The translations under genes and the position numbers were made by a program. This document shows, in pieces, positions 4,311 to 5,698 of a stretch of DNA of 64,000 bases. The stretch's first letter is position 1; each line of letters begins with the position of its first letter. The notes beneath the pieces are model-generated. The model was given only the letters and a program-made list of their open reading frames with translations. It ran no database searches and was not told the DNA's origin. This stretch comes from Bugula neritina (Eukaryota > Bryozoa > Gymnolaemata > Cheilostomatida > Bugulidae). The stretch covers positions 3,141,751-3,205,750 of the forward strand of contig OZ037773.1 of assembly GCA_964035545.1 (NCBI GenBank), written 5' to 3'.

Positions 4311-4317
4311 CCTCAAT

Positions 4318-4362
4318 CTGTGGACAGCAGCTGTTTCGGGGTTTGTCCCCTCATCAGCACAG
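4318..4362 (-). ncRNA. Type I hammerhead ribozyme, unit 1
   Basis: Read on the minus strand the order is: stem I 5' strand CTGTG; conserved core CTGATGA; stem II GGGG with loop ACAAA and CCCC; conserved GAAA; short stem III ACAG, loop CTG, CTGT; cleavage-site C (as in GUC); stem I 3' strand CACAG. All invariant core positions of the hammerhead (C3 to A9, G12-A13-A14, the A15.1-U16.1 pair, H17) are present. Predicted self-cleavage lies between plus-strand positions 4323 and 4322. The very short stem III is typical of satellite and retrozyme hammerheads, which often work best as tandem dimers, and that matches the head-to-tail array. Not tested for activity. Confidence 0.92.
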
Positions 4363-4589
4363 AACAGAGTACCATGGCCCACACCTTCGCAATAGTAGAA
4401 ACTTATGTTTCTACTAAAGCATATTTAAAAGGTGTGTAAACTCAAGCCAGAGAGCTCAAGTGACTCTAGGGGTCACCTAGGAGTCACGAGCCTTGCAAAA
4501 TGCTAGCAGCTTGAGTTTGTGACCATGGTGAGAGAGCTCAATCACTGAATGTCATTGCTGAGCATTAAGTGAGAGCATAATACCTCAAT

Positions 4590-4634
4590 CTGTGGACAGC
4601 AGCTGTTTCGGGGTTTGTCCCCTCATCAGCACAG
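4590..4634 (-). ncRNA. Type I hammerhead ribozyme, unit 2
   Basis: Core and stems are identical to unit 1. One monomer released by cleavage at units 1 and 2 would be a 272-nt RNA. Confidence 0.92.
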
Positions 4635-4861
4635 AACAGAGTACCATGGCCCACACCTTCGCAATAGTAGAAACTTATGTTTCTACTAAAGCATATTTAA
4701 AAGGTGTGTAAACTCAAGCCAGAGAGCTCAAGTGACTCTAGGGGTCACCTAAGAGTCACGAGCCTTGCAAAATGCTAGCAGCTTGAGTTTGTGACCATGG
4801 TGAGAGAGCTCAATCACTGAATGTCATTGCTGAGCATTAAGTGAGAGCATAATACCTCAAT

Positions 4862-4906
4862 CTGTGGACAGCAGCTGTTTCGGGGTTTGTCCCCTCATCA
4901 GCACAG
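4862..4906 (-). ncRNA. Type I hammerhead ribozyme, unit 3
   Basis: All core positions and the three stems are unchanged from unit 1. Confidence 0.92.
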
Positions 4907-5133
4907 AACAGAGTACCATGGCCCACACCTTCGCAATAGTAGAAACTTATGTTTCTACTAAAGCATATTTAAAAGGTGTGTAAACTCAAGCCAGAGAGCT
5001 CAAGTGACTCTAGGGGTCACCTAGGAGTCACGAGCCTTGCAAAATGCTAGCAGCTTGAGTTTGTGACCATGGTGAGAGAGCTCAATCACTGAATGTCATT
5101 GCTGAGCATTAAGTGAGAGCATAATACCTCAAT

Positions 5134-5178
5134 CTGTGGACAGCAGCTGTTTCGGGGTTTGTCCCCTCATCAGCACAG
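5134..5178 (-). ncRNA. Type I hammerhead ribozyme, unit 4
   Basis: The ribozyme is unchanged from unit 1. This unit's only obvious difference is outside it (GAGCTTAAG for GAGCTCAAG). Confidence 0.92.
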
Positions 5179-5405
5179 AACAGAGTACCATGGCCCACAC
5201 CTTCGCAATAGTAGAAACTTATGTTTCTACTAAAGCATATTTAAAAGGTGTGTAAACTCAAGCCAGAGAGCTTAAGTGACTCTAGGGGTCACCTAGGAGT
5301 CACGAGCCTTGCAAAATGCTAGCAGCTTGAGTTTGTGACCATGGTGAGAGAGCTCAATCACTGAATGTCATTGCTGAGCATTAAGTGAGAGCATAATACC
5401 TCAAT

Positions 5406-5450
5406 CTGTGGACAGCAGCTGTTTCGGGGTTTGTCCCCTCATCAGCACAG
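5406..5450 (-). ncRNA. Type I hammerhead ribozyme, unit 5
   Basis: Last complete ribozyme of the array. The following partial unit keeps only its first few bases and has lost the ribozyme. Confidence 0.92.
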
Positions 5451-5698
5451 AACAGAGTACCATGGCCCACACCTTCGCAATAGTAGAAACTTATGTTTCT
5501 ACTAAAGCATATTTAAAAGGTGTGTAAACTCAAGCCAGAGAGCTCAAGTGACTCTAGGGGTCACCTAGGAGTCACGAGCCTTGCAAAATGCTAGCAGCTT
5601 GAGTTTGTGACCATGGTGAGAGTGCTCAATCACTGAATGTCATTGCTGAGCATTAAGTGAGAGCATAATACCTCAATCTGTGAGAGCATAATACCTCA

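Follow-up and report, generated by a model that had tools for sequence, protein, structure and literature searches.

A tandem hammerhead retrozyme of Bugula neritina, probably mobilized by Penelope-like elements with which it shares a (TA)n target, a start site and a bulged hairpin

The window analyzed here, a stretch of 64,000 nucleotides from Bugula neritina (contig OZ037773.1, positions 3,141,751 to 3,205,750), carries on its minus strand a tandem array of a 272-bp unit lying between two (TA)n tracts (Table 1). Tandem Repeats Finder detected the 272-bp period over 4308-5682, with 5.1 copies and 99% matches, and together with a comparison of the units it confirmed the five head-to-tail repeats described in an initial annotation of this DNA; the span given there, 4311-5698, is slightly short, since a tail and a leader extend the array to 4308-5699, the extent of tail, five units and leader together. 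Unit positions are counted from the C of CACAG, the first nucleotide after the predicted hammerhead cut. Units 2, 4 and 5 each have one private difference relative to unit 1, and unit 3 is identical to it. The unit has a GC content of 45.6% and encodes neither a reverse transcriptase nor a GIY-YIG endonuclease, no frame of 130 aa or more being present in the array, and the monomer is predicted to be strongly self-paired (z -7.7; 0 of 200 shuffles equally stable). At one border, the 15-nt tail runs beyond the last predicted cut, and we infer that its 3′ end is the point at which reverse transcription started. At the other, the leader is joined to unit position 1, the predicted cut, through a 3-nt microhomology, a single event that could mark either a template jump at a cleaved 5′ end or DNA slippage. 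The window also contains a second, one-unit copy, which belongs to an older subfamily (GAGATAT, TTACGCTC) and was absent from the initial annotation.

Table 1. Features of the retrozyme array and of related elements in the window (site 1 is defined in the text)
Feature	Position	Strand	Source or remark
(TA)n tract, 3′ side of the element	4248..4310	.	Tandem Repeats Finder
15-nt tail beyond the last predicted cut, unit positions 1-15	4308..4322	-	
Five head-to-tail 272-bp retrozyme units, predicted cuts as borders	4323..5682	-	
Single units	4323-4594, 4595-4866, 4867-5138, 5139-5410, 5411-5682	-	
Type I hammerhead of unit 4323-4594	4318..4362	-	predicted cut between 4323 and 4322
Remaining hammerheads, +272 steps	4590-4634, 4862-4906, 5134-5178, 5406-5450	-	predicted cuts also at +272 steps
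Hairpin 1 (PLE-type) of unit 4323-4594, unit positions 19-64	4531..4576	-	recurs at +272 steps
Hairpin 2 (PLE-type) of unit 4323-4594, unit positions 104-146	4449..4491	-	recurs at +272 steps
17-nt leader, unit positions 7-23	5683..5699	-	CAC shared with position 1 at the join
(TA)n tract, 5′ side of the element	5699..5815	.	Tandem Repeats Finder
Second retrozyme copy, one unit, between TA repeats	14509-14783	-	hammerhead scan
3′ end of a 5′-truncated PLE of family F: hammerhead core and tail, ending at site 1 in (TA)n	35737..35834	+	

Each unit reads, in order, CTGTG, CTGATGA, a GGGG/CCCC hairpin, GAAA, stem III, TC, the predicted cut and CACAG. All invariant bases of a type I hammerhead are present in the five units, with a 15-nt core, stems of 6, 4 and 4 bp and an open stem I, which upholds the initial assignment of a complete type I ribozyme to every unit; the second copy likewise has all invariant bases and stems of 6, 4 and 4 bp. 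A hammerhead scan of the window returned exactly the five units and this one additional copy (core at 14558), and 50 mononucleotide shuffles gave 0.0 hammerheads per 64 kb. The initial annotation had made the ribozyme assignment depend on a covariance-model match as well, and here the outcome was negative at the curated Rfam thresholds: the 64-kb window gave 0 gathering-level matches, and none of the 17 matches at E<=10 between 4100 and 5900 was a hammerhead. When 64 nt were searched on their own, the hammerhead matches were sub-threshold, RAGATH-1 hammerhead scoring 19.1 bits (cut-off 56.3; E 0.15; no non-standard pair marked) and Hammerhead_3 14.9 bits. Genome-wide, Hammerhead_1 gave one match among the 73 scored of 15,744 candidates, and this match lay outside the listed places of the 40-nt motif considered below. 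We judge that dependence on a covariance-model match is too strict, because every core base and the three helices are present. According to nearest-neighbor prediction, which omits tertiary contacts, the isolated motif has a minimum-energy fold other than the hammerhead (-13.0 versus -10.5 kcal/mol), and a 70-nt hammerhead piece folds no better than its own shuffles (z -0.61). The motif nevertheless leads us to infer that these hammerheads are capable of self-cleavage. Dimer-assisted cleavage, which had been predicted from a short stem III, is possible, as ACAGCUGCUGU can pair with itself throughout apart from a central U-U, and yet it is not predicted: stem III, with 4 bp and a 3-nt loop, exceeds the single pair of the dimer-dependent salamander motifs, and most invertebrate monomers are described as cleaving efficiently (PMC7229834). 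Two other hammerhead comparisons were of no use; a generic two-gap pattern matched three times in the genome and three times in its control, and conservation of the hammerhead among copies was discarded because the loci had mostly been selected by that very motif. Viral contigs contained 0 matches to the exact hammerhead.

Searches of 215.8 Mb of genome sequence revealed both the abundance of the element and a characteristic insertion signature, which the initial annotation had overlooked, as it had the link to Penelope-like elements (PLEs) that is developed below. The 40-nt hammerhead motif occurs at 475 places with at most three mismatches, and a junction of unit position 15 with (TA)n occurs at 403 places with at most two mismatches, the backwards control being 0 in both searches; head-to-tail junctions, at 107 places, are fewer than position-15 ends. 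Ninety loci (L001-L090), selected by whole-unit similarity or by the hammerhead and hence biased toward hammerhead-bearing copies, yielded 94 independent segments. Position 15 forms the end of 75 of these, namely 74 that were counted plus the window array, whose match had been split by the four-unit probe; at least 12 A/T letters stand right behind the end in 64 of the 74. The remaining segments end at positions 9-18 (11 of 94) or elsewhere (8 of 94, one of them at the edge of its locus). On the 5′ side, where 73 of the 94 segments have a TA repeat, the ends are spread, and the outermost 5′ end falls at positions 1-3 in none of the 94. The (TA)n target is not a matter of chance, because perfect TA runs of at least 12 bp cover just 802 of the 64,000 bases of the window. 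Since the 15 nt beyond the cut were copied, the template must have possessed an intact junction, whether as a circle or as an uncut multimer. An excess of 5′ ends at positions 4-19, 16 of the 272 positions (20 of 94 segments; 12 of 63 in pattern-chosen loci), was considered as a one-lap stop on a circle and set aside, because TA microhomology at these positions also explains it.

The same genome harbors PLEs. Four matches in a GIY-YIG search led to locus L091, where a frame scoring 22.8 bits (cut-off 22.6) is accompanied by hammerheads, tails and (TA)n. Genome-wide, matches to this frame number at least 150 (395 candidates, of which 150 were scored), and open frames reach 740 aa. In L092, L062 and L026, frames bearing YRDDG resemble PLE reverse transcriptases by their motifs. 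Pfam gave no reverse-transcriptase match for the PLE frames, those with YRDDG included, and solved structures offered no relative of them. The endonuclease part has 319 relatives; the 120 listed include proteins with fish and sea cucumber names, and the precomputed domain PF26215 occurs in several of them. Retrozymes and PLEs are also found side by side: a PLE 3′ end, (TA)n and about one retrozyme unit follow in succession, twice, in L092, and for 9 of 90 exact retrozyme junctions at least one of the 150 PLE endonuclease matches is no more than 5 kb away, where 0.7 would be expected and the maximum in 10,000 simulations was 5. A shared preference for TA tracts would alone suffice to account for this proximity, and the orientation of retrozymes next to PLEs appeared mixed on inspection by eye.

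PLE copies insert in (TA)n. Most of them have their end at either of two sites, each placed 2-8 nt upstream of a bulged hairpin. Site 1, which can be located only to within a few nt given that its flank consists of TA as well, lies 2-6 nt before the hairpin in families A (several copies), B (L045), E (one copy, L091), F and D. Family F presents 102 site-1 ends and 105 read-throughs at up to two mismatches, one place appearing in both lists. In family D no site-1 end had been observed when the site was predicted from the rule, and the subsequent search found it at 129 places with at most three mismatches (control 0), the 100 places listed being fused to a TA repeat 3-4 nt upstream of the predicted point. 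An exception is the family D copy in L065, which ends just after its own hammerhead and not at a hairpin. In the D/D2 locus (L005 and L026, which are one place), a second hairpin follows site 2 at a distance of 5-8 nt and ends 16 nt before the ATG of the frame, and in L072 a hairpin ends 17 nt before an ATG; the second-hairpin check covers these two loci. The retrozyme start at position 15 lies 3 nt before hairpin 1, and in two retrozyme insertions the start precedes hairpin 2 by 8 nt, the third match of that search having no TA junction. Family F copies also occur as inverted pairs (L029, 1814-2005; L067, 1806-2077) in which one arm ends at site 1 and the other reads through, and many site-1 and read-through places of this family are close together on opposite strands.

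The hairpins of both kinds of element fit a single form, [GA]CTC-stem-loop-stem-TN-GAG[CT]-[AT]CT, in which the inner stem is variable and TN is a two-nucleotide bulge; nine PLE hairpins and both retrozyme hairpins conform to it. An alignment of the nine PLE hairpins misplaced their 5′ arms, and pairs counted by script were therefore used in place of a covariance model. Across the 12 hairpins compared (nine from PLEs, two versions of hairpin 1, and hairpin 2), 12 of 12 have standard pairs at the first three inner positions, with several pair types at each position. G-U inner pairs occur in A and A2, and the outer G-C is replaced by A-T in family F. On these counts, the predicted inner stem covaries between PLE families. 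Because the hairpin was defined only after it had been noticed in both elements, the shuffle figures which follow overstate independence: among 20,000 dinucleotide shuffles of the unit, one had a hairpin, none had two and none had one at the start site; a looser test, restricted to the 75 nt that follow the start, was matched by 91 of 20,000 shuffles of the window copy and by 0-83 of those of the PLE families; and 640 kb of shuffled window sequence gave five hairpin matches. A looser scan of the real window also matched at 24395, 51623 and 33596, with no sign of a PLE there.

We consider it probable that the array is a recently active non-LTR retrozyme that was mobilized in trans by PLEs of the same genome. 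According to this proposal, arrays would be transcribed, and the type I hammerheads would cut the RNA into 272-nt monomers, which, to judge from the motif and from published animal retrozymes, would be ligated into circles. The PLE protein, in the role that we assign to it, would recognize the bulged hairpin common to retrozyme and PLE tails, nick (TA)n and begin reverse transcription 3 nt upstream of hairpin 1, at unit position 15; the start site, the target and the shared hairpin are features read from the copies, as are the anatomy of the array and its junctions. Circular or uncut RNA would then be copied part of the way, once or for several laps, with variable stops, yielding truncated monomers and occasionally a head-to-tail array such as that at 4308-5699.

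Among the other explanations, mobilization by a LINE-type enzyme, with the likeness to PLE tails due to chance or ancestry only, draws on the fact that LINEs also make 5′-truncated copies and have been named as possible donors (PMC7229834); it appears improbable to us in view of the target, and of the start relative to a bulged, covarying hairpin, that PLE families A, B, D, E and F have in common with the retrozyme, in a comparison that covered PLEs and the retrozyme. Ordinary satellite DNA, subject to unequal exchange and to slippage in (TA)n and carrying a chance or fossil hammerhead, would likewise produce near-identical tandem units inside a microsatellite, and yet 403 dispersed ends at one nucleotide, ragged 5′ ends and head-to-tail junctions at only 107 places make this explanation scarcely credible.

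The form of the template is a separate matter. The 15 nt past the cut require merely an intact junction, and uncut linear multimers rather than circles would meet this need; long transcripts could yield arrays, unprocessed RNA served as a substrate in vitro (PMC11167929), and the array leader joins at position 1, as if the template had ended at the cut. Against such linear templates, which we think rather doubtful, stand the lack of any outermost 5′ end at positions 1-3 among the 94 segments and the small differences within arrays (0-2 in the window) compared with those between arrays (1-12), as a single circle predicts, although a recent common source explains the latter as well. With mobilization by PLEs as the preferred reading, the chances seem to us about even that the retrozyme is in essence an ORF-less miniature of a PLE tail, with hammerhead, hairpin 1 and hairpin 2 in the same order, that animal retrozymes in general would relate to PLEs as SINEs do to LINEs, a circular RNA serving as their template, and that the bulged hairpin would be the shared recognition signal.

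The array fits the known metazoan non-LTR retrozymes, which have been described as 170-400-nt non-coding tandem units with a GC content below 50%, no LTR, one canonical type I hammerhead per unit and a strongly self-paired monomer, co-existing with PLEs (PMC7229834). The initial annotation had likewise recognized a small, tandem, non-coding element with a type I hammerhead and near-identical copies, and that description holds: the unit falls within about 150-450 bp, GC is below 50%, no LTR is present and dispersed copies are many. In contrast to the retrozymes described in PMC7229834, the present element occurs mainly as monomers and truncated single copies, has a fixed 3′ end 15 nt beyond the cut, inserts in (TA)n and carries the PLE tail hairpin twice; the words ‘microsatellite’ and ‘target site’ do not occur in the main text of that paper. 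Plant LTR retrozymes (PMC4918200; described in PMC7229834) are similarly non-autonomous and hammerhead-bounded, with a proposed circular RNA intermediate, but their hammerheads are of type III and lie in LTRs, their circles measure 600-800 nt and they are thought to use Ty3-gypsy enzymes (PMC7229834).

PLEs such as Poseidon of Anolis share several traits with the retrozyme described here: a hammerhead, reverse transcription that begins downstream of the hammerhead at an internal stem-loop, a pair of start sites, an AT-rich target and both tandem and truncated copies (PMC11167929). In vitro work on this one PLE has established that initiation is internal and close to a stem-loop, that there are two start sites and that the targets are AT-rich (PMC11167929). 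Its start lies 111-118 bp into the ORF, in a stem-loop that is AC-rich, whereas in the two loci considered above a hairpin precedes the ATG of the ORF by 16-17 nt. PLEs encode a reverse transcriptase and a GIY-YIG endonuclease, whereas the retrozyme encodes nothing; it works like a PLE tail, yet it is not a PLE. The enzyme that spreads animal retrozymes is stated to be an open question between LINEs and PLEs, with PLEs a strong candidate, and mobilization by PLEs has already been proposed (PMC7229834; PMC11722881); origin of retrozymes from PLEs by reduction has been suggested too (PMC11722881). ‘Retrozyme’ does not occur in the main text of PMC11167929, and in the literature searched, from which subscription papers were mostly absent, no title or abstract among those listed reports the shared start site or hairpin. 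As far as these searches show, the common target, start site and hairpins are new evidence. Hundreds of junctions define a nucleotide-precise start, a target and a shared hairpin, making the mobilizing enzyme directly testable by biochemical means, and PLEs gain a candidate recognition signal that is backed by covariation.

Other repeats and mobile elements occur in the window as well. An LTR-retrotransposon remnant on the minus strand (24189-25513) retains integrase zinc-binding and RNase H-like reverse transcriptase domains recognized by Pfam. A 487-bp tandem repeat of 7.8 copies, also on the minus strand (16179-20007; Tandem Repeats Finder), bears repeated related frames; Pfam gave no match for the one frame tested from this group, and frames resembling these are found one at a time between 39 and 60 kb. 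Finally, 39-bp tandem repeats are located at 44908-45185 and 55128-55288, the first of which encodes a TDNSPYTEMSVTR-like peptide repeat.
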